A stretch of DNA of 52,621 bases. Origin: Myxococcota bacterium. GTDB lineage: Bacteria; Myxococcota_A; UBA9042; DTJE01. The stretch covers positions 1 through 52,621 of the forward strand of contig JAGOKF010000018.1 in assembly GCA_017994695.1 (NCBI GenBank). The letters run 5' to 3'. A program made the translations under genes and the position numbers. Under the pieces are notes generated by a model. The model was given only the letters and a program-made list of their open reading frames with translations, was not told where the DNA came from and did no database searches. Of the stretch, positions 1 through 21,240 are shown in pieces. Numbering within the stretch: position 1 is the first letter of the stretch; every line of letters begins with the position of its first letter.

Positions 1-3000
1 GGGATCCGGGCCGTCGCAGAGTTCCCCGACCGGGAAGTTCTCGTCGGTCAGGCCGTCGCAGTCGTCGTCCCGCCCGTTGCAGACCGCGGCGATGTCGGTG
101 ATGGACTCGGGGCCGCACTCGGAACCCCTCCCGTCCGCCCGGCAGACGAAGACCCCGTTCTTGCAGAAGTCCGTGTCCGGTCCGTCGCAGGGGAGGCCGA
201 CCAGGAAGTCGTCGTCGGGCGTTCCGTCGCAGTCCTCGTCGATGCCGTCGCAGCGGTCCTCGGTCTCCCGGAAGCCCGGCACCCCCGAGTAGTCGCAGAC
301 CCACCGTCCCCCGACACAGGCTGCCGGGATGACCTTCCCGGCACAGATTCCCCCGTGTCGGCAGGCGTCGGGCCCCGGCGTCACGTCCTCGTCGGTCTGC
401 CCGTCGCAGTCATCGTCCTGGCCGTTGCAGGTCTCGGGCCGGACCCCCGGAGCGGACCCGTCCGGGTTGCTGCTGCAAGTCACCTGGAGGCTGACCCGAT
501 TGCACTCCACGACCCCGGGCCCGCAGGCCCCGATGCCCGTGCAAGCCGTGCCCAGGGCCTGGCCCTGGTAGAGCAGGCCGTTGTCCGCCACGCCGTCGCA
601 GTCGTTGTCCAGGCCGTCGCAGAGTTCCGGCACCGCCTGGGAAGCGGTCCCGTCGGCGTTGGAACTGCACGTCGCCCGGGCCCGGTCCACCGAGCACTGC
701 ACGATGCCGGATCCGCAGAGGCCCTCCCCGGTGCAGGCCGCGCCCAGGGTCGCCCCCTTCCAGACCATGCCGTTGTCCGTCACACCGTCGCAGTCGTCGT
801 CCAGGCCGTTGCACCGTTCCGGGATCCCGGCCGGATCCTCGGGACCGCAGACCGTCCCGGCACCGTCCCCGGTGCACTCCATCACCCCGCGACGGCAAAC
901 GTCCGAATCGGGCCCGTCGCAGGACAGCCCCAGTTCCGGGAAGACCTCGTCGGTCAGCCCGTTGCAGTTGTCGTCCAGCCCGTTGCATCGCTCGGCCGAC
1001 GGCCCCCGCTCCGGGTGGCAGGCCAGGAAGGCCTGGAGTCCCTCGTGGACGCAGACCGTGACCCCCGGACGGCACTCCCCGACCGACGACCCGCAGGGCA
1101 GCCCGTCGCTGCCCGGATTGCCGTCGTCCACGATCCCGTCGCAGTCGTCGTCGAGGCCGTTGCAGATCTCCGGAGCGCCAGGGTGGATCGCCGGGTTCCG
1201 GTCGTCGCAGTCGAAGGGGGGCGGGTAGCCGTCCCGGTCCTGGTCCGTCAACCCGAAACAGGACAGGTCCGCCCCGTTGCAGTCCTGGTCCACCCCGTCC
1301 CCACACTTCTCCGGGGCTCCCGGGTGGATCGCCGGGTCCCCCTCCCCGCAGTCCTGGGGAGGGACGAAGCCGTCCCCGTCCAGGTCCGCCGGGTCGCACC
1401 AGGTGATCCGGCCGTCGCAGTTCCAGTCGCAGATTTTCAGGGCATCGGTCCCCTTCCGGGACGCCAGGCAGCAGGGTTCCGAGGCGCCCGGATGGACCTC
1501 CGCCCGGTGGTCGTCGCAGTCCTCGGGCCGAAGGAAGCCGTCCCCGTCCAGGTCGTCGGGCAGGCAGTCCTCGTCGGTCTGCCCGTCGCAGTCGTCGTCC
1601 GGGCCGTTCCCGCACAGTTCCGGCAGGTCCCGCCGGTCCGGCGGCTCCTGGCAAAGGACCCCCCGCCCGTCGGGATGGCAGGCGAACCGGCCGTTCGGGC
1701 ACAGGTCGGCATCCTCACCGTCGCACGGTCCTGCCGGTAGGACGAAGTCCTCGTCGGTCTGCCCGTCGCAGTCGTCGTCGACACCGTTGCACCGCTCGAC
1801 CCGGGGCCCGACGCCACCCAGGCACTCCATCCGCTGCCCCAGGGTGCCGTAGTGGACGCAGGCCCATCGTCCCGGGCGACAGGCCCCCTCCGAGGACCCG
1901 CAGGAGTCCCCGGCACGGACCGGGGCCGAACCCGGGTCCCCGAAAACCGATGGCCCGACGGCGGCCCCGTCGTCGATCACCCCGTTGCAGTCGTCATCGC
2001 GGCCGTTGCATCGTTCCATCGCCCCGGGATGCACCAGGGGATCCGCGTCGTCGCAGTCGAACCGGCCGGCATGGCCGTCCCCGTCCTCGTCCAACGGGCC
2101 GACGCATCCCGACTCCCCGACCGCGCAGCATTGCAGGTCGCCCTGCTGGCAGTCCTGGTCGATGCCGTCGTTGCACCGCTCCGGCGCTCCCGGGTGGACC
2201 GTCGGATCCGAATCGTTGCAGTCCGCCGGAGGCGCGTACCCGTCCTGATCCCGATCGTCCAGGGAGCACCAGGCGACCCGCCCGTCGCAGTCGAAGTCGC
2301 ACCGGGGTCCCAGGACCTCCGGAGGGGTGTCCAGCGAACAGCAGGGCTCGAAGGCTCCCGGCCGTCTCGCCGGGTCGTCGGGGGCGCAGTCCTGATCGTT
2401 GGGCACGCCGTCGCCGTCCCGGTCCGGGGATCCGCAGGTCTCGTCGGTTTCCCCGTTGCAGTCGTCGTCCTGTCCGTTCCCCCCGAACACGCCGCAGTCC
2501 TCCAGGGCCTGGGCCTGGCCGCCGGTCGAGCACCCGGGCTGGCCGTCCGGCTTGCAGACCACCTGCCCGCCTTCGCACCGCCCCGTCCCGCAGGACTGGC
2601 CCAGTCGCCGGAGAGCCCCGTCGAAGTCCCGGAACCACAACCCCTCGTCGGTCCGGCCGTTGCAGTCGTCATCGACCCCGTTGCACCGCTCGGCGGAGGG
2701 GTACCGGGCATCGCAGGCCCCCCATCCGCCTTCCCCCTGGCAGGTCACCCGGCCCGGGCAGGTTCCCGCCGGGACGGCCACCTGGCAGGGCAGCACGGCG
2801 CCCTCGAGGTCCGCGCCGCACCGGCATCCCCCCGCGTCGGGGACGCACTGGGACCGGAGCACCGCCGGCAGGTCCTCCCGGGGGACCGTCTGGCACGTGA
2901 ACCCTCCGGGACACGGGGTGCCGGCCCCGCAGGGAGCCCCGCAGAAGCGCCCTCCGACCCCTTCCAGGCAGGCGGCGCCGGGGGCCGGACAGTCGGCATC

Positions 3001-3459
3001 CTGGCGGCAGGGGGCGCACAGCCCCACCGGCATCGGCTGGCAGACCAGGTCCTCGGGCCCGCCGAGGGGAAGGCACCAGAGGCCCTGGGGGCATCCCCCG
3101 TCGCAGGGCCCTGCGCAGACGCCGGCCGTTCCTCCCTCGATCCCCGGCCAGGGCAGGCACAGGGCCGACAGGCATTCCCCCGGCCCTGCGCAGGGCCACC
3201 CCGGCGCCCCCGGGGCCACTTCCCGGAAGGGGACGTCGGACAGGTCCCCGTCGTCGGATGCCTCCGTCTCGGCGAGATCCCCGGGATCCTCCTCCCCGTC
3301 GAGGAGAATGCCGTCATCGGTGGCCAAGACGTCTGCGATGTCGGCACCCGCATCGGCGCCTCGATCTTGGGGAACATCGGAAGGGGCGGGGTCCACGAAC
3401 CGGGTGCATGCCCAGACCAGGCACGGAAGGGCCCACAGGGGCCATCGAAGCCATCTCAT
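1..3459 (-). CDS. MopE-type Asp/Cys-repeat lipoprotein, 3' end outside window
   Basis: Open from ATG 3459-3457 to the window edge: 1153 codons with no stop, so the C-terminus is missing. GGGAGG lies 8 nt upstream of the start. The N-terminus is a signal peptide with a probable lipidation cysteine (LVWAC, Cys18; Trp at -2 is unusual). A roughly 70-residue Asp/Glu/Pro-rich linker follows, then a Cys-rich module. The rest is a repeat array in which I count 14 copies of the type CNGxDDDCDGxTDE, spaced by DCDDxDPxIHPGAxE stretches. These match the putative metal-binding repeat of MopE-like proteins (Pfam family of PF11617 type). The Asp ladders suggest Ca2+ or other metal binding on the cell surface. 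It resembles the lipoprotein at 11001-20948 in having lipid anchor, acidic linker and Cys repeats. Cellular role unknown. Confidence 0.85.
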   Translation of the reverse strand, partial: MRWLRWPLWALPCLVWACTRFVDPAPSDVPQDRGADAGADIADVLATDDGILLDGEEDPGDLAETEASDDGDLSDVPFREVAPGAPGWPCAGPGECLSALCLPWPGIEGGTAGVCAGPCDGGCPQGLWCLPLGGPEDLVCQPMPVGLCAPCRQDADCPAPGAACLEGVGGRFCGAPCGAGTPCPGGFTCQTVPREDLPAVLRSQCVPDAGGCRCGADLEGAVLPCQVAVPAGTCPGRVTCQGEGGWGACDARYPSAERCNGVDDDCNGRTDEGLWFRDFDGALRRLGQSCGTGRCEGGQVVCKPDGQPGCSTGGQAQALEDCGVFGGNGQDDDCNGETDETCGSPDRDGDGVPNDQDCAPDDPARRPGAFEPCCSLDTPPEVLGPRCDFDCDGRVAWCSLDDRDQDGYAPPADCNDSDPTVHPGAPERCNDGIDQDCQQGDLQCCAVGESGCVGPLDEDGDGHAGRFDCDDADPLVHPGAMERCNGRDDDCNGVIDDGAAVGPSVFGDPGSAPVRAGDSCGSSEGACRPGRWACVHYGTLGQRMECLGGVGPRVERCNGVDDDCDGQTDEDFVLPAGPCDGEDADLCPNGRFACHPDGRGVLCQEPPDRRDLPELCGNGPDDDCDGQTDEDCLPDDLDGDGFLRPEDCDDHRAEVHPGASEPCCLASRKGTDALKICDWNCDGRITWCDPADLDGDGFVPPQDCGEGDPAIHPGAPEKCGDGVDQDCNGADLSCFGLTDQDRDGYPPPFDCDDRNPAIHPGAPEICNGLDDDCDGIVDDGNPGSDGLPCGSSVGECRPGVTVCVHEGLQAFLACHPERGPSAERCNGLDDNCNGLTDEVFPELGLSCDGPDSDVCRRGVMECTGDGAGTVCGPEDPAGIPERCNGLDDDCDGVTDNGMVWKGATLGAACTGEGLCGSGIVQCSVDRARATCSSNADGTASQAVPELCDGLDNDCDGVADNGLLYQGQALGTACTGIGACGPGVVECNRVSLQVTCSSNPDGSAPGVRPETCNGQDDDCDGQTDEDVTPGPDACRHGGICAGKVIPAACVGGRWVCDYSGVPGFRETEDRCDGIDEDCDGTPDDDFLVGLPCDGPDTDFCKNGVFVCRADGRGSECGPESITDIAAVCNGRDDDCDGLTDENFPVGELCDGPDP

Positions 3460-3609
3460 CCGGCGAACCTCCCGTCCCGCGCAGGGCCGGGAATAGTGTA
3501 GCAAAGTCCTCCCGGCCGGGCAGCCCGTCACCGGGCCGGACCCGGGTCGTTTCCGCCGGCTCCCGGCCTTCGCCGTGATACATTCAGGCGCCTGGTTGGG
3601 GAATCGCCG
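3460..3609. promoter_or_regulatory. Divergent promoter region between repeat lipoprotein and hemY
   Basis: This 150-bp spacer lies between divergent starts. On the minus strand a -10-like TACACT (3500-3495) lies about 36 nt upstream of the lipoprotein ATG. On the plus strand GATACATT (3577-3584) lies about 26 nt upstream of the hemY ATG. Neither has a convincing -35 hexamer, so these are only AT-rich candidates in a GC-rich background. Confidence 0.3.
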
Positions 3610-5028
3610 ATGGAACGGGTGGTCATCGTGGGCGGCGGGGTCTCGGGACTGGCGCTGGCCTTCTGGCTGCAGCGCCTGGCCGCCGGGACCGGACGGGAGA
3701 TCCGGGTGACGGTGCTGGAGGCAGAGGACACCCCGGGCGGCCGGATGCGGACCGAGCGGGACGGCCCCTACCGGGTGGAGTGGGGGCCCAACGGCTTCCT
3801 GGACAGCAAGGTCCACGCGGTGCGTCTGGTCGAGGCCCTCGGGGCGGGCGGCCAGGTCCTCCAGGCATCCCTCCGGTCCCGAACCCGGTACATCACCCGG
3901 GGGGGCCGGCCGGTGCCGGTCCCCGAGTCGCCCCCCGCGTTCCTCCGCAGTCCCCTCCTCTCCCTTCCCGGGAAGATCCGCCTGCTGGGGGAGCCCTTCG
4001 CCCCGCCTCCGCCTCCGGGCCGGGACGAGACGGTGGCCGAGTTCGTGCGGCGCCGGATCGGCCCCGAGGCCCTGGCCTTCCTGATCGACCCGATGGTCTC
4101 GGGGGTCTTCGCCGGGGATCCGGAGGCGCTGAGCCTCGCGGCCGTCTTCCCCCGCATGGTCGAACTGGAGCGGGATTACGGCGGGCTCTTCCGGGCCCTC
4201 TGGCACCTGGGACGGGAGAAGCGCAGGGCCCGGCGGAATCCCGCCTCGGGGGGCATGGGGCAGCCGACGGGGGTGTTGACCTCCTTCCGGGAGGGAAGCC
4301 AGTTCCTGGTGGAGGCCCTGGCCGCCTCCCTGGCCCCGGGCACGCTGGCCTGCGGGGCCAGGGTCCGGGAGGTGCACCGGACGCCCGGCGGGTCCCTGGT
4401 GGAGGTCCGGGACGCCGGGGGGGGCGTCCAGTGGCTGGCCGCGGACCGGGTGGTCCTGGCCTGCCCCTCCTACGAGGCGGCGCGAATCCTCCGGCGGGAA
4501 GCCCCGGACCTGGCAGCGCTGCTGGACCGGATCCCCTATGCCCCCATCTCGGTGGTCGGAACCGCCTTCGAAGACCGGGCCCTGGGGGACAGTCCCCGGG
4601 GCTTCGGCGTGCTCCACCCGCGGGTCGAACGCCGGGGGTCCCTGGGAACCCTCTGCGACTCGCTGGTCTTCCCGAACCGGGCTCCCGAGGGACGGGTGCT
4701 GCTGCGGACGATGGTCGGCGGCGCCCGGGATCCCGAAGGCGCCGGCCTCCCGGACGAGGCGCTGCTGGAACGGGTGGTCCGGGACCTCCGGGAGATTCTG
4801 GGAGTCCGGGGGGACCCGGAACGTGTCTGGATCTTCCGCCATGAGCGCGGTATTCCGCAGTATCTTCGAGGACATCCAAGCATCCTGCGCCAGTTGGACC
4901 AGCGCCTGTCCCGGTGGCCCGGGCTCCACCTGTGCTCCAACGCCTACCGGGGCATCGCCCTGGGGGACTGCTGTCGCGAGGCCGAGACCCTGGCCCGGCA
5001 GATCGTCCACGCCGACCCCACCGCCTGA
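3610..5028 (+). CDS. hemY: Protoporphyrinogen oxidase (HemY type)
   Basis: 472 residues, normal for oxygen-dependent FAD protoporphyrinogen oxidase, which makes protoporphyrin IX in haem synthesis. The N-terminus carries the dinucleotide-binding motif VVIVGGGVSGLALAFWL (residues 4-20), followed by an acidic residue and GGR (LEAEDTPGGRMR). The WGPNGFLDS segment near residue 58 is typical of this family. The C-terminal GIALGDCCREAETLA is the second FAD-contact region. ATG 3610 is chosen because the Rossmann strand begins immediately; the upstream GGGGA is a weak ribosome binding site. The next gene starts 16 nt downstream, so the two are probably cotranscribed. No other haem genes are visible here. 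Another amine-oxidase-fold flavoenzyme such as a carotenoid desaturase is possible, but the motifs favour HemY. Confidence 0.85.
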   Translation: MERVVIVGGGVSGLALAFWLQRLAAGTGREIRVTVLEAEDTPGGRMRTERDGPYRVEWGPNGFLDSKVHAVRLVEALGAGGQVLQASLRSRTRYITRGGRPVPVPESPPAFLRSPLLSLPGKIRLLGEPFAPPPPPGRDETVAEFVRRRIGPEALAFLIDPMVSGVFAGDPEALSLAAVFPRMVELERDYGGLFRALWHLGREKRRARRNPASGGMGQPTGVLTSFREGSQFLVEALAASLAPGTLACGARVREVHRTPGGSLVEVRDAGGGVQWLAADRVVLACPSYEAARILRREAPDLAALLDRIPYAPISVVGTAFEDRALGDSPRGFGVLHPRVERRGSLGTLCDSLVFPNRAPEGRVLLRTMVGGARDPEGAGLPDEALLERVVRDLREILGVRGDPERVWIFRHERGIPQYLRGHPSILRQLDQRLSRWPGLHLCSNAYRGIALGDCCREAETLARQIVHADPTA

Positions 5029-5044
5029 ACCCCCAGGAGGCACC

Positions 5045-5938
5045 ATGCGCTTCGGAACGCTTCGACTGGTCGCCGGACGGGACATCCCGGCCCTCTTCGG
5101 TCCCTTCGGGGCCGTGGACCTGGAGGAGGAGGCGGCCCGGAGGGGGCTCCCGCCCCCGCCCCGGGCCGGCCGGGACTTCGTGACGGCCTGGGCCGCCGGG
5201 GATCCCCCGCTTCGGGACCTGGTGCACCGGGCCCTGGAAGCACCCCTCGCGGTGATCCCCGATCGTGCCTGCGCCTTCCTGCCACCGGTGCCGGATCCGA
5301 AACTAGTGATCGCCGTCGGGCTGAACTACCGGAGCCACTGCCGGGAGCAGGACCGGGAGGTCCCGGCATCGCCCCTCTTCTTCGCGAAGATCCCCTCCTG
5401 CCTCGCCGGCCACCGGGACCCGATCCCGGCCTGGCCCCTGACCTCCCAGATGGACTACGAGGCGGAACTGGCGGTGGTGATCGGCCGCCCGGGACGGGAC
5501 ATCCCCCTCGACCGGGCGATGGACCACGTCGCGGGCTACACGGTCCTGAACGACGTCACCGCCCGCGATCTCCAGCGACAGGAGCGGCAGTGGACCCGGG
5601 CCAAGGGCCTCGACGGCTTCGGGCCCTGCGGGCCCTGGTGGGTCTCCCGGGACGAGATCCCGGATCCCCAGCGCCTGGGAATCCGGACCTGGGTCAATGG
5701 CGATCTGCGGCAGGATTCCTCGACGGAGGAGATGGTGTTTCCCGTGGCCCTGCTGGTCTCCCGTCTCTCGGAGGCCATCACGCTGAGCGCCGGGGACATC
5801 CTCAGCACGGGCACCCCGGCGGGGGTGGGGGTCTTCCGCAAGCCTCCGGCGTTCCTGGCCGCCGGGGACCGGGTGGTCATCGAGGTGGAGGGCGTCGGCC
5901 GCCTGGAGAACCGGGTGGTCGCCCCCGGGAGCCTTTGA
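5045..5938 (+). CDS. Fumarylacetoacetate hydrolase (FAH) family protein
   Basis: 297 residues. ATG 5045 is preceded by an excellent AGGAGG (5036-5041). The family core follows a divergent N-terminal domain: VGLNYRSHCREQ, EAELAVVIGRPGRDIP, GYTVLNDVTARDLQ, KGLDGFGPCGPW, TWVNGDLRQDSSTEEMVF and STGTPAGVGVFRKPP. The two acidic residues of EAEL and the Asp of NDVTARDLQ fit the Mg2+ site. Members hydrolyse or decarboxylate 2-oxo acids (fumarylpyruvate, acylpyruvates, 5-oxopent-3-ene-1,2,5-tricarboxylate), and the exact substrate cannot be read from sequence. No aromatic catabolic genes are nearby. Its stop codon lies inside the -35 hexamer of the pyrG promoter. Confidence 0.85.
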   Translation: MRFGTLRLVAGRDIPALFGPFGAVDLEEEAARRGLPPPPRAGRDFVTAWAAGDPPLRDLVHRALEAPLAVIPDRACAFLPPVPDPKLVIAVGLNYRSHCREQDREVPASPLFFAKIPSCLAGHRDPIPAWPLTSQMDYEAELAVVIGRPGRDIPLDRAMDHVAGYTVLNDVTARDLQRQERQWTRAKGLDGFGPCGPWWVSRDEIPDPQRLGIRTWVNGDLRQDSSTEEMVFPVALLVSRLSEAITLSAGDILSTGTPAGVGVFRKPPAFLAAGDRVVIEVEGVGRLENRVVAPGSL

Positions 5939-11000: not shown

Positions 11001-14000
11001 TCAGGTGCATCCCGGGATGGGGTCGTGGGAGCAGAAGTTCCCGTCGTTGCAGAAGTCCCGGGTGCAGTAGTTCCCGTCGTCGCACTGGGCGTCGAAGATG
11101 CAGCACCCGGGGATCTCCTCGTGCCGGCAGTTCCCCGTGGCGCTATCGCAGGAATCCTCCGTGCAGGGGTTGAAGTCCAGGCAGGACACCGGCTCGTAGA
11201 AGCAGGTCCTCGTCTCCGGGTTGCAGTCGTCCATCGAGCAGGGGTCCCGGTCGTCGCAGTCCAGCGGACTGTTGCAGCAGTAGGGGATCGGCGTGAAGAC
11301 GCACTGCCCGTTCGCGGGATTGCAGGAGTCGGTCGTGCAGGGATTCACGTCATTGCAGACCTTCGGGTCATTGCGGCATTGCCCGGCGATACAGTCGTCG
11401 ATCGTGCAGGCGAAGCCGTCGTTGCAGTCCGCGGCCACCTGGCAGCACCCCGGAATGGCCTGGAAGACGCAGAGGCCCGTGTCCGGGTCGCAGGAATCGA
11501 CCGTGCAGGGGTTGTTGTCGTCGCAGACCCTCGGCGTGCTGAAACAGGCGTTGCTGATGGGGTTGCACTCCTCGATCGTGCACTTGTTCCCGTCGTCCGG
11601 GCAGTCCGGGGTGTAGGTGCACTGCCCCGTGGCGGGGTTGCAGGCGTCGATCGTGCAGGTGACCCCGTCGTCGCAGTTCCGGGGCAGGAAGTCGCAGAAC
11701 TGCACCCCGCTGACCGTGACGCAGAAGTCGCCGGTGCAGAGGTTGCCGTCGTTGCACTGGGCGTCGGAGGTGCAGGCCTGGCACCTCAAGGTGTTCAGGG
11801 TGTAGCGGCATTCCCCGGTCAGGGCCACGCAGGAGTCGTTCGTGCAGGCATTCCCGTCGTCGCAGTCGTTGTCCACCAGCACGCACTGGCCGGCGGGCTC
11901 CCGGCAGACGTAGATCCGGCACAGGTTCAGCGGGTTCGGGGGGTCCGGGCACTGCTTCTCCGCGAAGACGCACCCGACCGCCGGGTCGCAGGAGTCGTCG
12001 GTGCAGCCCAGCCCGTCGGAGCAGACCACGGCCGGGTGCTGGCAGAGCCCCTGGGCGTCGCAGACGTCCTGGGTGCACTGGTTGCCGTCGTCGCAGTTCA
12101 CCGCGTTGTGACGGCACCCGTCGATCGGGTCGCAGGTATCGACCGTGCAGGGGTCTCCGTCGTCGCAGTCCACCGGGTAGGGCCCGATCACGCAGTTCCC
12201 GGTGGTACCGTCGCACTCGTCCACCGTGCAGGCGTCGCCGTCGTCGCAGACCTTGGGCCGCGCCTCGCAGTAGCCCGCGATGCACTGGACGTCCACGCAG
12301 CCGTTGCCTCCCTGGCAGGGCCTCGTCGGCCCGCAGGTGGTGCAGGTGCTGTCGTCGTGCACGCAGCCGACGCCCGGCGAGCAGGAATCGATCGTGCACA
12401 GGACCCCGTCGTCGCAGTTCCGGTCGAAGGGCCGACAGGCCCCATTGACCGGGTCGCACCGGTTCTCCATGCAGGGGTCCTCGCTCGCCGGGCAGGTGAT
12501 GGCGTCGTGGACGCACTGGCCTGTCACGAGGCTGCAGGAATCCCGGGTGCACGGGTTCCCGTCGTCGCAGTCCTTGTAGGTGCTCCGGCAGAAGCCCGTC
12601 GCCCGCTCGCAGGTCTCGATCGTGCAGGGATTGCCGTCGTCGGGGCAGACCACGTCGACCGGGGCGCTGCATTCCCCGGTCGCCGGGTTGCAGGTTCCCT
12701 GGCGGCAGAAGTTGTCGGGGTCGGCCGGGTCCTCGCAACGGTTCAGGCCGTAGGTGCAGTAGCCCAGGGCCAGGTTGCAGGAGTCCTCGGTGCAGGCGTT
12801 CCCGTCCGAGGGGCAGGGGTTCGTGGCGGAGCACCGGATGCAGGCCGAGTCGTCGTGCCGGCAGACCCCGGTCGCCGGGTCGCAGGAATCCACCGTGCAG
12901 GCGATCCGGTCGTCGCAGGAGGGCGGCGGCAGGTGGACGCAGGCCCCGGTGTTCGAGTCGCAGAGGTCCTGCGTGCACGCGTCGCGGTCGTCGCACTTGT
13001 TCCGGACGTGGCATCCCCCGTCGGCCAGATCGCAGTAGTCGATGCTGCACGGGTCGCCGTCGTCGCAGACCTTCGGTGTGAAGACGCACCCGAACCCGGG
13101 CTCGCAGGAATCGATCGTGCACCGGTTGTCGTCGCTGCACGTGACGGGCTGGTGCTGGCACCCGTTCTCGTTGCAGGAATCCACCGTGCAGGCATTCTGG
13201 TCGTCGCAGGTCAACGGCGTGAAGACGCACTGGCCGTTGGCCGGGTTGCAGGAGTCGGCGGTGCAGGGGTCCCCGTCGTTGCAGGTCACGTCGGTGACGT
13301 AGCACCCGAGGATCGGGCTGCAGGCGTCCACCGTGCAGGGCAGGAAGTCGTTGCAGACCACCGGCTCCCGGACGCACTTGCCCGTGGCCTCCACGCAGGC
13401 GTCCAGCGTGCACAGGTTGTCGTCGTTGCAGTCGATGGGCGAAAAGACGCAGACGATGCCGCCGCCGTCCGGGAGGCACCCGTCCACCGTGCAGTTCAGG
13501 CCGTCCACGCACAGCGCGGGATTCCGGCACTGGCCCGTGGCCGGGTCGCAGAGGTCCCCGGTGCAGGGGTTCAGGTCCGAGCAGTTCTTCGGCTCGTTCG
13601 TGCACCGGCCGCCGAGCCCCAGGTTGCAGACGTCGTCGGTGCACGGGTTCGTGTCGGCGCACTCGGCGTCCTCGGTGCACGGCGTGCAGGGCTCCACCGG
13701 AGTGAACACGCAGCCCTGGCCCGGAACGCAGGCGTCGTCGGTGCAGGGATCGTGGTCGTCGCAGACCGTCGGGCGGGTCCGGCAGCTCCCGTCCAGGGGA
13801 TAGCAGTAGTCGTCGGTGCAGGGTTCCCCGTCGTTGCAGGACCGGGGCTCGTTCACGCACTCGCCGGTGGCCAGATCGCAGGAGTCCAACGTGCAGAGGT
13901 TGGCGTCGTCGCAGTCGACGGGGACGTGCAGGCAGGCCCCGCTGGCCGGATCGCAGAGGTCCAGCGTGCAGAGGCTGCCGTCGTCGCAGTCCTTCTGCTG

Positions 14001-17000
14001 GAATTCGCACCGGAGGAACTGTCCCGCTTCGGTGACGCAGACGTCCAGCGTGCAGGCATCCAGGTCCTCGCACTCGGGCGGGTTCTCGCACCGCCCGGTC
14101 CCGGGGTTGCAGTAATCGATGGTGCAGGGGTCGCCGTCCCCGCAGGTCGAGATGACGTCGTTGTGGCAGACCGGCACGCCGCTTTCGACCACGCAGTAGT
14201 CCCGGGTGCAGGCATTGTTGTCGTCGCAGGACTTGACCGGGTAGAGGCACTCCCCGGTGGCGAAGTCGCAGGTGTCCTCGGTGCAGGGGTCCGTGTCCTG
14301 GCAGCGGATCACGTGCTGGCACCCGGTGGCGGGATGGCAGGAGTCGGTCGTGCAGACCGACCCGTCATCGCAGTTCACCGGCGGGTGGTAGCAGTTGCCC
14401 GAGTAGATGTCGCACAGGTCCACCGTGCAGAGGTTGCCGTCGGAGCAGTCCTTCTCGACGTAGACGCAGCCGACGGACGGGTCGCAGGTCTCGGAGGTGC
14501 AGAGATTGCCGTCGTCGCAGACCACCGGCACCGAGTAGCAGATCCCCAGCACCATGTCGCACCGGTCCAGCGTGCAGGCGCTCCCGTCATCGCAGACCGG
14601 GTCCTCCTCGAAGGAGCACGGCGTGCAGTTGCCCGTGGGCGTGTTGGTGCAGGCCCCGGTCGCCGGGTCGCAGGAATCCACCGTGCAGGGATTCCGGTCG
14701 TCGCACTCCCGGCCCACGTCGGTCTTCGCGACGATCCGGCACTCGCCGTCGGGCGGGTTGCACCAGCCCACCAGGCACTGGTCGTTGGGGTCCCCCGGAC
14801 ACTGGCGCGGCGTGTGGCGGCAGGCCCCGCTCGCCGGGTCGCAGAAGTCCACCGTGCAGGCGTCCTCGTCGGTGCAGTCCCGGACGATGTACTGGCAGGC
14901 CCCGGTCCCGGTGTTGCAGACGTCCACGATGGTGCAGGGGTCGTCGTCGTTGCAGTCCTTCGGGGCGAAGGTGCAGACGCCTTCCGGCTCGACGCACTCG
15001 GTGCTGGTGCACTCGTTGCCGTCGTCGCAGGGCTTCTGGCGGTGGATGCAAGCCCCCGTCAGGGGATTGCACAGGTCGTAGGTGCAGCCGAGCCCGTCGT
15101 CGCACTGGACCTCCGGGTGCACGCACCCCCGGGCCGGGTCGCACTCGTCCCGGGTGCAGGGGTTCTCGTCGAAGCAGTCCACGGGGTCGTGGTGCACCAC
15201 CCCCGTCACCGGGTCGCACCAGTCCATCGTGCAGAAGTTCCGGTCGTCCACCACCTTCGGGACGTTCCCGCATCCTCCCAGGCCCGGGATGCAGATGTCG
15301 TCGGTGCAGGGGTCGTCGTCGGCCGGGCAGGTGACCGGGTCGTGGCGGATGAGGCCCGTCGCCCGGTCGCACGAATCGATCGTGCACGGGTTGAAATCGT
15401 CCACCGGCACGTCCGGGAAGTAGCAGTTCCCGGTCTGCTCGTCGCAGAGGTCCTGCGTGCAGGGGTTGTTGTCGTTGCAGGGCTTCAGGTCGTGGCGGAC
15501 GATGCCCGACACCGGGTCGCAGTAGTCGATCGTGCAGAGATTGCCGTCATCCAGAGGCTTCGGGGTGTTGATGCACCGGGCGCTCCCCGGCTCGCAGGTG
15601 TCCACCGTGCAGGGGTCCCCGTCGCTGCAGTTCTTCGCGAAGTGCCGGACGATGCCGGTCTGCGGGTCGCAGAGGTCCACCGTGCAGGCGTTCCCGTCGT
15701 CCACGTCCTTGGGCACGTTGCTGCACTGCCCGTTGAAGGCCAGGCAGAGGTCCACGGTGCAGGGGTCGTTGTCGTTGCAGTTCACCGGCGCGTGGGTGAC
15801 CCGCCCGGAGACCGGGTCGCAGGCGTCGGTGGTGCACAGGTTGCCGTCGTCGGTCTCCACCGGGAGATGCACGCATCCCGAGGCCGTCCAGCACTCGTCC
15901 CGGGTGCAGGGGTCGTTGTCGTTGCAGTTCACCGGGGTGAAGACGCAGGCCCCGGTGGCGGGGTCGCAGGCGTCGGTGGTGCACTTCGTCCCGTCGTCGC
16001 AGGACCTCGGGACATGGCGGCAGGCGCCCGTCGCCGGGTCGCAGGAATCGACCGTGCAGAAGTCCCCGTCGTCGCAGTTCACCAGGGTGTTCTGGCAGGC
16101 CCCCGTCACCGCCGAGCACCAGTCCACCGTGCAGGGGTTGTTGTCGTTGCACGCCTTGTTGGTCCAGGAGCACCGGCTGCCCGAGCAGGTGTCGGTCGTG
16201 CAGGCGTTCTGGTCGTTGCAGTCGCTGTTCTTCGTGCAGGTGCCCGTCGGGCGGTAGACGCACCCGACCTCCGGCACGCAGAGGTCCAGCGTGGCGGGGT
16301 TGTCGTCGTTGCAGGTCATCGGGTCGTGGACGCATCCCCCGGAGGACGGGGAGCAGCGGTCCAGCGTGCAGGGGTTCCCGTCGTCGCAGTTCACCGCCCG
16401 GTACTCGCAGCCGCAGGTCAGCGGGCTGCAGGTGTCCAGCGTGCAGGGGTTCTGGTCGTTGCAGGTCTCGGGCGAGTGGGTGCAGACGCCGGTCGAGGCC
16501 TCGCAGAGGTCCCGGGTGCAGCAATTGCCGTCGTCGCAGGACTTCGCCACGTGGAGGCACTTGCCGGTGGCCGAATCACAGGAATCCGCCGTGCAGGCAT
16601 TGCGGTCATCGCAGTCCTTCGGGGCCGTCTCGCATTCCCCGGTGATCGGGGAGCAGTAGGAGTCCCGGCACTTGTCCGCGGAGGTGCAGGTCTTCGCCAT
16701 GTGCACGCAGGCCCCGGTCCGCAGGTCGCAGGAATCCTGGGTGCAGGGATTCCCGTCGTCGCAGGCCGCCGAGGCATCCGCGTGCACGCAGCCGAGCACC
16801 GGGTCGCAGAAGTCCAGCGTGCAGGGGTTGCCGTCGGAGCAGGTGGCCTCGACGAAGCCGCAGGCGCCGGTGCCCATGTCGCACTCGTCCACCGTGCAGG
16901 GATTCTGGTCGTCGCAGACCACCGGCTGCTGGAAGCAGGCCCCCGTGACGGGGTTGCAGAGGTCCTGGGTGCACTTCAGCAGGTCGTTGCAGTCCTTCCG

Positions 17001-20000
17001 GATGGCCTGGCAGGACCCGGTCCGCCCGTCGCACAGGTTCGTCGTGCAGAGGTCCTGGTCCTCGCAGGCGGTGGTCGGGGTGTAGACGCAGGCGCCGCCC
17101 TCGCACCGGGCAAAGACGCAGAGGTTGCCGTCGAAGCACTCCATGTCCCGGGTGCAGGCGGGGCACTGGGGCGGCGCCGTGATCCGGGCATGGCGACACC
17201 CGACCATCGGGTCGCAGGTGTCCGTCGTGCACGGATCCGCGTCGTTGCACAGCAGGCTCTTGTCCGCGTGCCGGCAGCCCCGGGCCGGATCGCAGGTGTC
17301 CTCGGTGCAGAGATTGTCGTCGGAGCAGTCGATCACCCGGTGGCCGCACTGGTTCGTGTTCGGGTCGCAGAAGTCGTCGGTGCAGGCGTTGCCGTCGTCG
17401 CAGTTCCGGGGACGGGCGGTGCAGAGGCCGGTCTGGGGGTCGCAGGCCAGCGTGGCGCAGGGGGGCGCCTCTCCGCAGTCCTTCGCCAGGAAGACGCACT
17501 GGCCGGTCAGCGGCGAGCAGGCGTCCTCGGTGCAGGCGTTGCCGTCGTCGCAGGCCTTCACCTTGTAGGAGCACAGGCCGGTCCTCGGATCGCAGAGGTC
17601 CTCGGTGCAGGGATTGCCGTCGTCGCAGTCGATCGGCACGCTGATCCACTGGCCCGTGGACCGGTCGCAGTAGTCCTCGGTGCAACGATCGTTGTCGTCG
17701 TAGGATGTCAGTGTGTAGGTACACTGCCCGGTGGTCCGGTCGCACTGGTCCTTCGTGCAGGGGTCGTTGTCGTTGCAAAGGACCAGTTCGTGCTGGCACG
17801 CGCCGGTCATGCTGTTGCAGAAGTCGATGGTGCAGGGATTGCCGTCGTCGCAGTCGGTCGGGGTGAAGAGGCAGCGTCCCGTGGCCCGGTCGCAGGTGTC
17901 CCGCGTGCAGAGGTTGCCGTCATCGCAGACCGTCGGCAGATGCTGGCACTGGCCCGTGACCGGGTTGCACCGGTCCACCGTGCAAGAATTGTTGTCATCG
18001 CAGGCGACGCACTGGGCCGAGCAGACCCCCGTGGCGGTGTTGCACCTGCCCGTGGCGCAGAGGTTGCCCTGGATCGTGCAGTCGGCATCCCTGGTACACC
18101 GGAAGTTCGCGCAGGCCGGCTCGTCGGGGTTCTTGTAGGGCAGGAAGATGGCCCCGCCGCAGTTCTCGTCGCAGGAATCCTGGGTGCACCGGTTCCCGTC
18201 CGAGGGGAACGCGCTGGTGTGCCGGCAGTTGCCCGACTGGTCGCACCAGTCGATCGTGCAGGGGTCCTGGTCGTCGCAGAGCTGCCCCCGGTGCTCGCAC
18301 TGCCCCGTGGCCGGATTGCAGTAGTCCAGCGTACAGGGGTCCGCGTCCTCGCAGTTCTTCACCGTGAAGAGGCATCGGCTCGGGGTCTGGGTCTGGTCGC
18401 ACCGGTCCGTCGTGCAGGAGTTCGAATCGTTGCAGTCGCTGTCCTTCGCGCACCCGGTGCCGCAGGGCGGGAAGGGGTTCAGCGTGTGGACGCACCCCAC
18501 GCCCTGGATGCAGGAGTCGTTGGTGCACTGGTTCCCGTCGTCGCAGCTGAAGGGCCGGATCTCGCAGGTCCCCGAGGTGGGGCTGCAGAAATCCTCGGTG
18601 CAGGGGTCGCCGTCGTCGCAGACCCTCGGGGTGAAGACGCACTGGCCGGTCGCCGGGTTGCAGCTGTCGTTCGTGCACTTGTCGTTGTCGTTGCAGACCA
18701 CCGGGGTGTTCACGCAGCCCACGGCGATGCGGCACTCGTCGTTCGTGCAGGGGTCGCGGTCATCGCAGTCCCGGGGGCCGAACTCGCACTTGCAGGTCGC
18801 GGGGTTGCACTGGCCGGTCTGGCACAGGTTCCCGCTGTTGCAGATCAGCGCCTCGTAGACGCAGACGCCCTGGGGGTCCCGGCTCTTGTCGCAGACGGCA
18901 TACCGGCAGCAGTCCGGGGGCTCCGGGCAGTCCAGCACGCCGTTGGGGCAGTGGAAGCACCCCGGGATGCGCTGGAACCTGCAGTTCCCGTTGGCCGGGT
19001 CGCAGGAATCCGCCGTACACTCGTCCCCGTCGTTGCAGGCCTTTTCCTCAAAGCGGCAGTAGCCTGTGTCCCGGTTGCAGGTGGCCGTTCGGCAGGGATT
19101 CGTGTTGGCCGCCTCGCACTCCTTGTCGGTGCTGCACCCGACGCAGTTCGGCTTCGTCTCGTCCAGGGAGTGGCGGCACTGGCCGTTCGCCAGGCTGCAC
19201 TCGTCGATCGTGCAGGAGTCCCCGTCGTCGCAGTTCTTCGGGACCTGGAAGCAGACGCCGGTCTGGCGGTTGCACTTCCCGAAGGAGCAGAGGGAGGCGT
19301 CCTCGCAGTCGCCGTCGGTTCGGCAGACCGGCCCGATGCATTGGGGGATCGTGATGTGCACGCACCCGCTGCCGGCCTGGCAGTAGTCCGTCGTGCAGGG
19401 GTTGCTGTCGTTGCAGGGATCCACCCGGTGGTGGCAGTAGGACTTCCCCGGGTCCAGGGGGTCCGCCGTGCAAGAGTCGATCGTGCAGGGGTCCCCGTCG
19501 TCACAGTCCCGCTCGCTCCGGCAGACGATCTCGCCGCAGCCGCCCGGGATCGGGGAGTAGACGCAGCCCCGGTCCGGCGCGCAGTCGTCCATCGTGCAGG
19601 GGTCCCCGTCATCGCAGGACCTCGGCTCGAGGCGGCAGGTCCCCCCCTCGCAGATGCCGTCGCCGCAGAGCCCCACCACCTGCTGGCAGTCCTGGTCGAA
19701 GAGGCACTCCTGGGGCAGCAGGTTGTGCAGACACCCCAGGGCCGGATCGCAGGTGTCCCAGGTGAAGGGGTTACCGTCGTCGCAGGACAGGGGCCGGTAG
19801 GCGCAGTAGTTGGCGCCCTCGGCGCAGGTGCTCCCCGGGGCCACGGCGATGCAGGCGTCCAGCGTGCAGAGGTTGCCGTCGTTGCACTCGGGGGAGTCCT
19901 CGCCGGGTTCCGTGCACCCGGGGCAGACGCACTCGTGGAGGCAGCCCAGGGCGTCGTCGCAGCGATCCGACGTGCAGAGGTCCCCGTCCTGGCAGGAATT

Positions 20001-20948
20001 CCGGGTGTAGCGGCAGATGTTCACCTGGCACAACCCGCTGGCCCGGTCGCAGACCGATCCCCCGGGACACCCGGCCCCGCAGGGAACCGACCCGTTCTCC
20101 AGGGGGATGCCGGTGCAGGTCCCGATCAGGCACTTCGGGCTGGGGTTGTTCTCCGGGGAGTTGCAGGTGTTGTCGCCGATCTGGCACAGGATGCAGTCCG
20201 GGATGGGCGTGAAGACGCACTCGCCCGTCTGGAGGTTGCAGGAATCCGCGGTGCAGGGGTTGTAGTCGGTGCAGGGCTTCGGGTCGTTGTGCACGACCCC
20301 TCGGGAATCGCACGAGTCGATCGTGCAGGGATTGTTGTCCTCGCAGCCGGCGCAGGGCAGGTGCCGGCAGACCTTCCCCGTTTCCGGGCAGTCGAACTGG
20401 TCCAGCGTCGATCCGGGTTTCGGGCACTCCACGCAGGTGTTCTGGTCGCAGGAACTGGCGCTCCGGCACTGGTCGTCGGCCGAGCAGGGCAGGCAGGGCA
20501 CGTTCGGCAGGAAGATGTGGTTGCATCCGCCCGGACGATCGGGGTCGCAGACCTCGTCGTAGGTGCAGTCGAGGCCGTCGTTGCAGTCCCGGGGAACCAG
20601 CGTGCACCGCTGGCCCTCGCAGTGTCCGACGAGGCACTGGTTCACCGGGTCGTCGGGGCAGTCCCTGTCCGTCTCGCAGGAGATCACGTCGGGCCCCTGG
20701 TCCCCCGGGTCCCCGGGGACCTCGGGCACGTCGCGGACGTCGGGCGTGTCCTTGCCCTCGTCTCCCGGCAGGTCCCGGGTGCCGTCCTCGGGGAGATCCC
20801 GGGGCGCATCGGGCGTCACCAGGTCCGCCCCCTCGTCCGGGGTGTCCTCGAAGCCGAAGTCCGGCCGTTGCCCCCCTCCCCCGCCGCAGGCGGCCATCGA
20901 GAGAGTCAGCAGGACCGTCAACGCGTACCGGCGACAGCGTGGCTCCAT
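11001..20948 (-). CDS. Giant four-cysteine-repeat surface lipoprotein (3315 residues)
   Basis: ATG 20948 is preceded by GAGGAGG with 5 nt spacing; the frame stays open further upstream, but that extension lacks a signal. The signal peptide ends in SMAAC followed by five Gly; lipidated Cys21. Residues 27-90 are an acidic Asp/Glu/Pro linker. From Cys91 to the end the protein consists of well over a hundred units of the form CDDGNPCTxDxCDPxTGxC, about 22-25 residues each (cysteines at 0, +6, +11, +18). Less regular inserts such as CTPCTEDAECAD break the array. Similar repeats occur in large surface proteins of Myxococcota. No enzymatic domain is seen. Likely a disulfide-stapled, possibly Ca2+-binding surface rod or adhesin, which is inference. 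Six units lack both the first and fourth Cys (see findings). Confidence 0.9.
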   Translation of the reverse strand: MEPRCRRYALTVLLTLSMAACGGGGGQRPDFGFEDTPDEGADLVTPDAPRDLPEDGTRDLPGDEGKDTPDVRDVPEVPGDPGDQGPDVISCETDRDCPDDPVNQCLVGHCEGQRCTLVPRDCNDGLDCTYDEVCDPDRPGGCNHIFLPNVPCLPCSADDQCRSASSCDQNTCVECPKPGSTLDQFDCPETGKVCRHLPCAGCEDNNPCTIDSCDSRGVVHNDPKPCTDYNPCTADSCNLQTGECVFTPIPDCILCQIGDNTCNSPENNPSPKCLIGTCTGIPLENGSVPCGAGCPGGSVCDRASGLCQVNICRYTRNSCQDGDLCTSDRCDDALGCLHECVCPGCTEPGEDSPECNDGNLCTLDACIAVAPGSTCAEGANYCAYRPLSCDDGNPFTWDTCDPALGCLHNLLPQECLFDQDCQQVVGLCGDGICEGGTCRLEPRSCDDGDPCTMDDCAPDRGCVYSPIPGGCGEIVCRSERDCDDGDPCTIDSCTADPLDPGKSYCHHRVDPCNDSNPCTTDYCQAGSGCVHITIPQCIGPVCRTDGDCEDASLCSFGKCNRQTGVCFQVPKNCDDGDSCTIDECSLANGQCRHSLDETKPNCVGCSTDKECEAANTNPCRTATCNRDTGYCRFEEKACNDGDECTADSCDPANGNCRFQRIPGCFHCPNGVLDCPEPPDCCRYAVCDKSRDPQGVCVYEALICNSGNLCQTGQCNPATCKCEFGPRDCDDRDPCTNDECRIAVGCVNTPVVCNDNDKCTNDSCNPATGQCVFTPRVCDDGDPCTEDFCSPTSGTCEIRPFSCDDGNQCTNDSCIQGVGCVHTLNPFPPCGTGCAKDSDCNDSNSCTTDRCDQTQTPSRCLFTVKNCEDADPCTLDYCNPATGQCEHRGQLCDDQDPCTIDWCDQSGNCRHTSAFPSDGNRCTQDSCDENCGGAIFLPYKNPDEPACANFRCTRDADCTIQGNLCATGRCNTATGVCSAQCVACDDNNSCTVDRCNPVTGQCQHLPTVCDDGNLCTRDTCDRATGRCLFTPTDCDDGNPCTIDFCNSMTGACQHELVLCNDNDPCTKDQCDRTTGQCTYTLTSYDDNDRCTEDYCDRSTGQWISVPIDCDDGNPCTEDLCDPRTGLCSYKVKACDDGNACTEDACSPLTGQCVFLAKDCGEAPPCATLACDPQTGLCTARPRNCDDGNACTDDFCDPNTNQCGHRVIDCSDDNLCTEDTCDPARGCRHADKSLLCNDADPCTTDTCDPMVGCRHARITAPPQCPACTRDMECFDGNLCVFARCEGGACVYTPTTACEDQDLCTTNLCDGRTGSCQAIRKDCNDLLKCTQDLCNPVTGACFQQPVVCDDQNPCTVDECDMGTGACGFVEATCSDGNPCTLDFCDPVLGCVHADASAACDDGNPCTQDSCDLRTGACVHMAKTCTSADKCRDSYCSPITGECETAPKDCDDRNACTADSCDSATGKCLHVAKSCDDGNCCTRDLCEASTGVCTHSPETCNDQNPCTLDTCSPLTCGCEYRAVNCDDGNPCTLDRCSPSSGGCVHDPMTCNDDNPATLDLCVPEVGCVYRPTGTCTKNSDCNDQNACTTDTCSGSRCSWTNKACNDNNPCTVDWCSAVTGACQNTLVNCDDGDFCTVDSCDPATGACRHVPRSCDDGTKCTTDACDPATGACVFTPVNCNDNDPCTRDECWTASGCVHLPVETDDGNLCTTDACDPVSGRVTHAPVNCNDNDPCTVDLCLAFNGQCSNVPKDVDDGNACTVDLCDPQTGIVRHFAKNCSDGDPCTVDTCEPGSARCINTPKPLDDGNLCTIDYCDPVSGIVRHDLKPCNDNNPCTQDLCDEQTGNCYFPDVPVDDFNPCTIDSCDRATGLIRHDPVTCPADDDPCTDDICIPGLGGCGNVPKVVDDRNFCTMDWCDPVTGVVHHDPVDCFDENPCTRDECDPARGCVHPEVQCDDGLGCTYDLCNPLTGACIHRQKPCDDGNECTSTECVEPEGVCTFAPKDCNDDDPCTIVDVCNTGTGACQYIVRDCTDEDACTVDFCDPASGACRHTPRQCPGDPNDQCLVGWCNPPDGECRIVAKTDVGRECDDRNPCTVDSCDPATGACTNTPTGNCTPCSFEEDPVCDDGSACTLDRCDMVLGICYSVPVVCDDGNLCTSETCDPSVGCVYVEKDCSDGNLCTVDLCDIYSGNCYHPPVNCDDGSVCTTDSCHPATGCQHVIRCQDTDPCTEDTCDFATGECLYPVKSCDDNNACTRDYCVVESGVPVCHNDVISTCGDGDPCTIDYCNPGTGRCENPPECEDLDACTLDVCVTEAGQFLRCEFQQKDCDDGSLCTLDLCDPASGACLHVPVDCDDANLCTLDSCDLATGECVNEPRSCNDGEPCTDDYCYPLDGSCRTRPTVCDDHDPCTDDACVPGQGCVFTPVEPCTPCTEDAECADTNPCTDDVCNLGLGGRCTNEPKNCSDLNPCTGDLCDPATGQCRNPALCVDGLNCTVDGCLPDGGGIVCVFSPIDCNDDNLCTLDACVEATGKCVREPVVCNDFLPCTVDACSPILGCYVTDVTCNDGDPCTADSCNPANGQCVFTPLTCDDQNACTVDSCNENGCQHQPVTCSDDNRCTIDSCEPGFGCVFTPKVCDDGDPCSIDYCDLADGGCHVRNKCDDRDACTQDLCDSNTGACVHLPPPSCDDRIACTVDSCDPATGVCRHDDSACIRCSATNPCPSDGNACTEDSCNLALGYCTYGLNRCEDPADPDNFCRQGTCNPATGECSAPVDVVCPDDGNPCTIETCERATGFCRSTYKDCDDGNPCTRDSCSLVTGQCVHDAITCPASEDPCMENRCDPVNGACRPFDRNCDDGVLCTIDSCSPGVGCVHDDSTCTTCGPTRPCQGGNGCVDVQCIAGYCEARPKVCDDGDACTVDECDGTTGNCVIGPYPVDCDDGDPCTVDTCDPIDGCRHNAVNCDDGNQCTQDVCDAQGLCQHPAVVCSDGLGCTDDSCDPAVGCVFAEKQCPDPPNPLNLCRIYVCREPAGQCVLVDNDCDDGNACTNDSCVALTGECRYTLNTLRCQACTSDAQCNDGNLCTGDFCVTVSGVQFCDFLPRNCDDGVTCTIDACNPATGQCTYTPDCPDDGNKCTIEECNPISNACFSTPRVCDDNNPCTVDSCDPDTGLCVFQAIPGCCQVAADCNDGFACTIDDCIAGQCRNDPKVCNDVNPCTTDSCNPANGQCVFTPIPYCCNSPLDCDDRDPCSMDDCNPETRTCFYEPVSCLDFNPCTEDSCDSATGNCRHEEIPGCCIFDAQCDDGNYCTRDFCNDGNFCSHDPIPGCT
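11004..20678 (-). repeat. Tandem array of about 70-bp units encoding four-Cys repeats
   Basis: The DNA repeats GTGCAGGGG-TTGCCGTCGTCGCAG-like segments every 66-75 bp, encoding C-D-D-G-N-x-C-T-x-D-x-C-D-P-x-T-G-x-C. Units are diverged rather than identical, so this is an old, selected array and not a recent expansion. Such DNA is prone to misassembly with short reads. Confidence 0.9.
15195..15854 (-). repeat. Alternating two-unit block within the giant lipoprotein
   Basis: Residues 1699-1918 alternate regular four-Cys units with units lacking both first and fourth Cys. Residues replacing the first Cys fall at 1699, 1749, 1799, 1849 and 1900, that is every 50 residues (51 for the last). This implies amplification of a 150-bp two-unit module. 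Confidence 0.8.
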
Positions 20949-21240
20949 GGGAACCTCCTCGGCCTTCAGGGACGTTGCCCGATTCCCCTCCTTACCGGAC
21001 GAGCCGGGAATCCTGGGGCGCAGTGAACGAGCAGATGATATCAAAGTATCCCGTTGCAAGGAAATCTTCCAGCGTCGTGGAGGGCAACTGGTAGAATGGG
21101 CCGGCCCCCCGGCGCGGGCCCCGGTTCCCTCCCGGGCGGTCCTCCCGGGCACCCTCCCCCGGTCCGCACCGCCTGGCCGCTTGCCAGCAAGTCCCGGAAG
21201 TCCTAGCATTCGGGCTGGGTGGTCACCGTGGAGGTCTGCC
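20949..21240. promoter_or_regulatory. Divergent intergenic region upstream of giant lipoprotein
   Basis: 292 bp between divergent genes. It holds the most AT-rich patch nearby (about 21033-21070). On the minus strand this contains GATACTTTGATATCATC, with TATCAT as a possible -10 but no good -35. On the plus strand GTGGAGGT precedes the ATG at 21241. I see no repeat or RNA element. Confidence 0.3.

Follow-up and report, generated by a model that had tools for sequence, protein, structure and literature searches.

Paired cysteine losses suggest a disulfide wiring for the CTDC repeats of a giant bacterial protein

A stretch of 52,621 nucleotides from a Myxococcota bacterium (GenBank assembly GCA_017994695.1, contig JAGOKF010000018.1), here called the window, carries on its reverse strand the gene of a giant protein built of about 110 short units with four cysteines each, and it raises the question of how these cysteines (C1 to C4) are wired to one another. 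The data make it very probable that the protein forms an extended, probably lipid-anchored surface rod of PF00526 (Dicty_CTDC) repeats, in which one disulfide joins C1 to C4 within a unit and a second joins C2 of unit i to C3 of unit i+1. The original prediction, drawn from the letters of the window alone, had proposed the first of these bonds from six units that lack both C1 and C4. This inference stands in a stronger form than the one in which it was stated, and the exceptions it left over can be explained: those lacking only C2 are accounted for by the second rule, which pairs that cysteine with C3 of the following unit.

A GAGGAGG box lies 5' of the ATG of the gene (window 20948..11001, reverse strand). 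As read from the sequence, the protein opens with a lipoprotein-like signal, LTLSMAAC/GGGGG, which is followed by a linker rich in aspartate and proline and then by the units, and it may be secreted or extracellular and is probably lipid-anchored. Its sole Pfam match is PF00526, with 1434.9 bits over 62 stretches at a gathering cut-off of 27, so that the gene is, by this match, an ordinary though enormous member of a known family, and what would be new is the cysteine wiring of that family. Within the 25-residue unit, which is the commonest spacing, C1 to C4 stand at 0, +6, +11 and +18, exactly as first described. Residue numbers used here count from the ATG, as did those of the original prediction, and equal the open reading frame number minus 98. 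The family is present in 52 of 52 genomes of the window's class, against 0 of 14 controls.

Cysteine losses were counted in two sets of units. Set A holds stretches from relatives of the same class (1,485 units), and set B adds 896 new units from loci of the GTDB collection (Bacteroidota, Planctomycetota, Chloroflexi, Hydrogenedentota, Acidobacteria, a Methanothrix bin and others), giving 2,381 tandem units from 177 loci. Units were kept if at least two of the four cysteine sites were filled, and they were anchored on non-cysteine columns, so that a missing cysteine pair could not bias their choice. C3 was accepted at +10 to +12; the 85 C3-less units of a first count were an artefact of C3 at +12 and vanished once this range was allowed, and four apparent C3-only losses have an insertion ahead of C3 or lie where the array breaks. 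Alignments were built from non-overlapping rows, as overlapping rows shift the register in MAFFT. Independent events were counted by orthologous positions, with six orthologous giant proteins aligned to one another, and not by identity clustering, which lumped unrelated units together, as the shared consensus by itself already yields about 47% identity. As a separate observation, many units in the class relatives L031-L139 carry C3 at +12 instead of +11 and alternate with normal units, with C4 shifted as well, which amounts to a two-unit super-repeat.

Across these 2,381 units, 32 of the 33 that lack C1 also lack C4. Units in homologues with just one of the two cysteines number 1 (C1 lost) and 8 (C4 lost, five of these being one orthologous unit), compared with the 32 double losses. 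Set A, in which 1437 units keep all four cysteines, gives 28 double losses, 1 loss of C1 alone and 5 of C4 alone, with 1451 units holding both C1 and C4 (p=4e-53); the corresponding counts in set B are 4, 0, 3 and 889 (p=1e-9). When C4 status was shuffled within each protein in 10,000 trials, the mean was 3.6 co-losses and the maximum 11. Specifically, the pair switches jointly between both cysteines and neither at 12 unit positions of the six-orthologue alignment, in which only one unit shows a mixed state, the same in all five orthologues that cover it. With non-orthologous proteins included, we count about 20 independent double losses and 5 single ones, and the double losses are spread over 18 proteins, other phyla included. 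Since C4 of one unit is never lost together with C1 of the next (0 co-losses among the units of set A), the bond would lie within the unit, and a C4(i)-C1(i+1) bond was rejected. Taken together, the counts support bonding of Cys1 to Cys4 inside each unit, as predicted from the window, and a bond of this kind exists in the solved arm of the Entamoeba lectin discussed below.

In the window, all six units described as lacking both cysteines were found at the residues given for them, and a seventh, starting at 18206, had been missed. It is a double loss too, because its orthologue in L061 reads CSDGDRC...GGCIF; its stray cysteine at +15 is common to L060 and L062. The replacements are mostly hydrophobic, as had been claimed: both sides are hydrophobic in 23 of the 32 double losses, and V/V or V/I takes the place of the pair in 14. 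Several other window units only seem to lack C1, their cysteine being shifted by one residue (CPDDGNPC). The early unit that lacks C4 only is present at 20345, with a CxxC upstream.

A sceptical reading of such co-loss is that one or two ancestral units gave rise to all six by copying, or that the six are decaying under relaxed constraint, so that their shared losses amount to pseudo-replication and say nothing about bonding. Five of the six do occupy every second unit from 15854 to 15177, alternating every 50 residues with intact units between them, and their amino-acid identity (0.48-0.64) is somewhat above the mean of 0.47 for units; these five are therefore not five independent events. This explanation is nevertheless highly improbable. 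Five of six orthologues show the loss at two of the five positions; at the remaining three it is confined to the genus of the window, and the orthologues have both cysteines there. The joint switching at 12 different orthologous positions and the independent losses under the same pair rule in unrelated proteins are not what copying would leave. Recent tandem duplication as the sole cause was rejected on this switching and on the comparison of unit identities. Decay of whole units was likewise rejected: all 32 double-loss units retain C2 and C3, and their remaining motif residues score on a par with those of intact units, which argues that these units are not decaying. Across the whole data set, units without C1 and C4 are never adjacent (0 cases), and 8 pairs are spaced by two units.

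When all four cysteines were compared within a unit and with the next, one further signal recurred in both sets, namely loss of C2 in one unit with loss of C3 in the following one. In regular tandem, a C2-less unit has a C3-less unit directly after it in 9 of 9 cases (p=3.5e-14 and 3.5e-8 for the two separate sets), and none of 10,000 permutations reaches the observed co-loss. In L140, a run of units lacking C2 or C3 obeys the rule at each link. Both pairing rules are thus shown in two data sets, and C2 of each unit would pair with C3 of its successor. A bond of C2 to C3 of the same unit, beside C1-C4, is the least probable of the alternatives: the two cysteines bracket one strand in the structure model described below, yet 8 of the 9 C2-less units keep their own C3, all 9 precede a C3-less unit, and the single unit without both lies between a C2-less and a C3-less neighbour.

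The ends of arrays and their linkers bear on the same pairing of C2 with the next C3. Units with no cysteine upstream lose C3 in 5 of 14 cases, compared with 29 of 3560 (p=1e-7), and units with no cysteine downstream lose C2 in 4 of 14, compared with 37 of 3560 (p=1.4e-5); the reverse is not seen, as array-first units are C2-less in 0 of 14 and array-last units C3-less in 0 of 14. In Methanothrix arrays the array-first C3 is replaced by Tyr. Where a linker brings two extra cysteines, C2(i) and C3(i+1) are both present (124 of 124), and of 27 linkers with a single extra cysteine, 11 go with a missing C2. When a C2-less unit stands outside regular tandem, the linker after it is of this one-cysteine kind, as with NPFTWDTC and NPATLDLC in the window. 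These two had been reported as losing only C2; they are present at 19784 and 16313, but their losses are not unpaired ones, because the partner of C2 would be C3 of the next unit, and one odd extra linker cysteine follows each. In L063, the orthologue of the NPATLDLC unit keeps C2 and has two linker cysteines. As an observation in its own right, L169 and L199, from bins labelled Methanothrix, hold short CTDC arrays whose first units have Tyr or Phe for C3 and whose last units are without C2, and these look like clean natural end caps.

Pairwise loss cannot by itself separate a disulfide from a two-ligand half-site, so the cysteines might instead be metal ligands, of the zinc or iron-sulfur type, that are lost as ligand pairs. 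A four-cysteine site should, however, lose all four jointly, whereas C1/C4 and C2/C3' are lost independently; in addition, the N-terminus reads as that of an exported lipoprotein and the nearest solved fold carries disulfides. We therefore hold metal binding to be most unlikely. That the pairs are disulfides, that the array is a rod and that it lies at the surface are points we infer.

Structure models are compatible with such a rod. AlphaFold models of six and three units have a predicted local distance difference test (pLDDT) score of 93.8 and 96.1, respectively, and show a confidently predicted beta-hairpin repeat whose units each have two strands, at columns 7-11 and 18-22; the first strand has C2 just ahead of it and C3 at its end, and the second begins with C4. 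In a Foldseek search of the PDB, the top match of both models, and their only clear neighbour, is the heavy-chain arm of the Gal/GalNAc lectin of Entamoeba histolytica (six units: E 3e-5 to 1e-4, prob 1.0; three units: E 0.02, prob 0.98). The arc and arm of this lectin (PDB 9gja, 9gjc, 9gjf, 9gjg), described in a structure paper of 2026, are likewise built of tandem four-cysteine beta pseudo-domains, of 20-35 residues. Each pseudo-domain is reported to have a bond between its first and last cysteines, and its second and third cysteines to be bonded to the pseudo-domains on either side (PMC12948311). The CTDC repeats would share both features, the C1-C4 bond as suggested by covariation and the bonds to both neighbours as suggested by co-loss and the end and linker rules; they are uniform, whereas the lectin domains are irregular.

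Several observations weigh against the proposed wiring or its likeness to the lectin. PMC12948311 words the lectin bonds as running from C2 to the previous and from C3 to the next pseudo-domain, opposite to the direction that covariation gives in the CTDC repeats, in which C2 would be joined to the unit after it and C3 to the one before. The overall superposition of the models on the lectin is poor (VIA Z 2.3-2.4, large root-mean-square deviation), and hmmsearch with two profiles against the PDB sequences found no lectin match at E<=10 and no sequence relative in the PDB; because of the poor global superposition and the lack of a sequence match, the giant protein is not filed in the lectin family. 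Five independent single losses break the C1/C4 pairing (L040, L186, L212, L215 and the orthologous unit at window 20345). Of array-first units 9 of 14, and of array-last units 10 of 14, retain the cysteine that is expected to have no partner, and 15 of 27 linkers with a single extra cysteine misfit the simplest parity rule until an extra or displaced neighbouring cysteine is counted.

The lectin wording would favour a stitch running the other way, from C3(i) to C2(i+1), and in set B these two sites are indeed lost together (p=7e-7). That signal comes from the short arrays L140, L169 and L199, in which C3 is missing from the first unit and C2 from the second; such losses are expected with the stitch proposed here, because the C2(1)-C3(2) bond would be the one that is kept. 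The signal is not seen in set A, and the absence of C2-less array-first and C3-less array-last units speaks against it as well, so that a reversed stitch is very unlikely. In a meander that enters a unit at one end and leaves it at the other, C2, in the first turn, would face the next unit and C3, in the second, the previous one, in line with the covariation. It is possible, though somewhat doubtful, that the arm of the Entamoeba adhesin and the CTDC repeats, bacterial and Dictyostelium ones alike, belong to one disulfide-ladder fold whose branches have diverged past sequence recognition, in which case the CTDC stitch differs in direction or the published wording is reversed.

The proposed model is thus one in which a C1-C4 disulfide would close each 25-residue unit and a disulfide from C2 to C3 of the following unit would stitch each junction. 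A hydrophobic pair (mostly V/V, V/I or Y/W) may stand in for a missing C1-C4 bridge and make its loss tolerable; a missing stitch would mean that both its cysteines are gone or that an odd linker cysteine takes over. The outcome would be a long, stiff and protease-resistant surface rod. A third, optional bond between units probably links an extra cysteine at column 5 of one unit (NCCT) to an extra cysteine at column 16 of the next (LTCGC), a pair that also occurs in L060, L061, L062, L124 and L136. The features of the window are collected in Table 1.

Table 1. The giant repeat gene and those of its units with missing or extra cysteines, in window coordinates; "lost" and "C/C" refer to the C1/C4 pair in orthologues.
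Feature	Position	Strand	Remarks
Giant CTDC-repeat protein gene	11001..20948	-	3315 residues; about 110 four-cysteine units
Unit with C1, without C4, CxxC upstream	20274..20345	-	Same state in 5/5 orthologues covering it
C2-less unit NPFTWDTC	19710..19784	-	Then linker with one extra Cys (PQECLFDQDC)
Seventh C1/C4-less unit (P/A; PSDGNRC...GGAIF), PSDGNRCTQDSCDENCGGAIF	18132..18206	-	Stray Cys at +15
C1/C4-less unit (Y/W), Y1083/W1101, YDDNDRCTEDYCDRSTGQWISVPID	17628..17702	-	C/C in L061, L062, L063
Unit with extra Cys at column 5 (NCCT)	16464..16538	-	
Next unit, with extra Cys at column 16 (LTCGC)	16389..16463	-	
C2-less unit NPATLDLC	16239..16313	-	Then linker with one extra Cys (TGTCTKNSDC)
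C1/C4-less unit (T/V), T1699/V1717	15780..15854	-	C/C in L061, L062, L063, L124
C1/C4-less unit (V/V), V1749/V1767	15630..15704	-	Also lost in L060, L061, L062, L124; C/C in L063
C1/C4-less unit (L/V), L1799/V1817	15480..15554	-	C/C in L061, L062, L063, L124
C1/C4-less unit (V/I), V1849/I1867	15327..15404	-	Also lost in L060, L061, L062, L124; C/C in L063
C1/C4-less unit (V/V), V1900/V1918	15177..15251	-	C/C in L061, L062, L063, L124

Around the repeat gene, the neighbours include the housekeeping genes of CTP synthase, PRPP synthase, PNPase and HisRS. A further neighbour at window 1-5085 (reverse strand) encodes a protein with Cu-binding_MopE motifs (PF11617, 242 bits), which is likely another surface repeat protein. 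An open frame of 3333 residues runs antisense to the whole repeat gene (window 11025-21026, forward strand) and is probably a by-product of high-GC codon use and of the repeats. Among the collected loci, L177 and L205 lie on contigs titled as a Klebsiella pneumoniae metagenome-assembled genome and hold dense CTDC arrays; they likely come from a mislabelled or mixed bin.

In Dictyostelium, the members of the family include the matrix proteins EcmA, EcmB, PdiA and PsiA/F/N (PMC4931340, PMC9117722). Their repeat resembles that of the window in its length of 24-25 residues and its pattern CxxxxxCTxDxC...GxC, and the window protein differs in being bacterial, giant and probably lipid-anchored. Our searches of the literature and of PDB sequences found no disulfide map or solved structure of the CTDC family. 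CTDC repeats build stalk and matrix proteins in Dictyostelium and very large surface proteins in the bacterial class of the window, and the repeats themselves would disclose the full wiring of such proteins, a rod closed inside each unit and stitched to the next. The pairing rule would predict array ends, breaks and hinges from sequence alone, and through its wiring the CTDC family may be connected with the arm of the Entamoeba adhesin, whose structure is newly solved.

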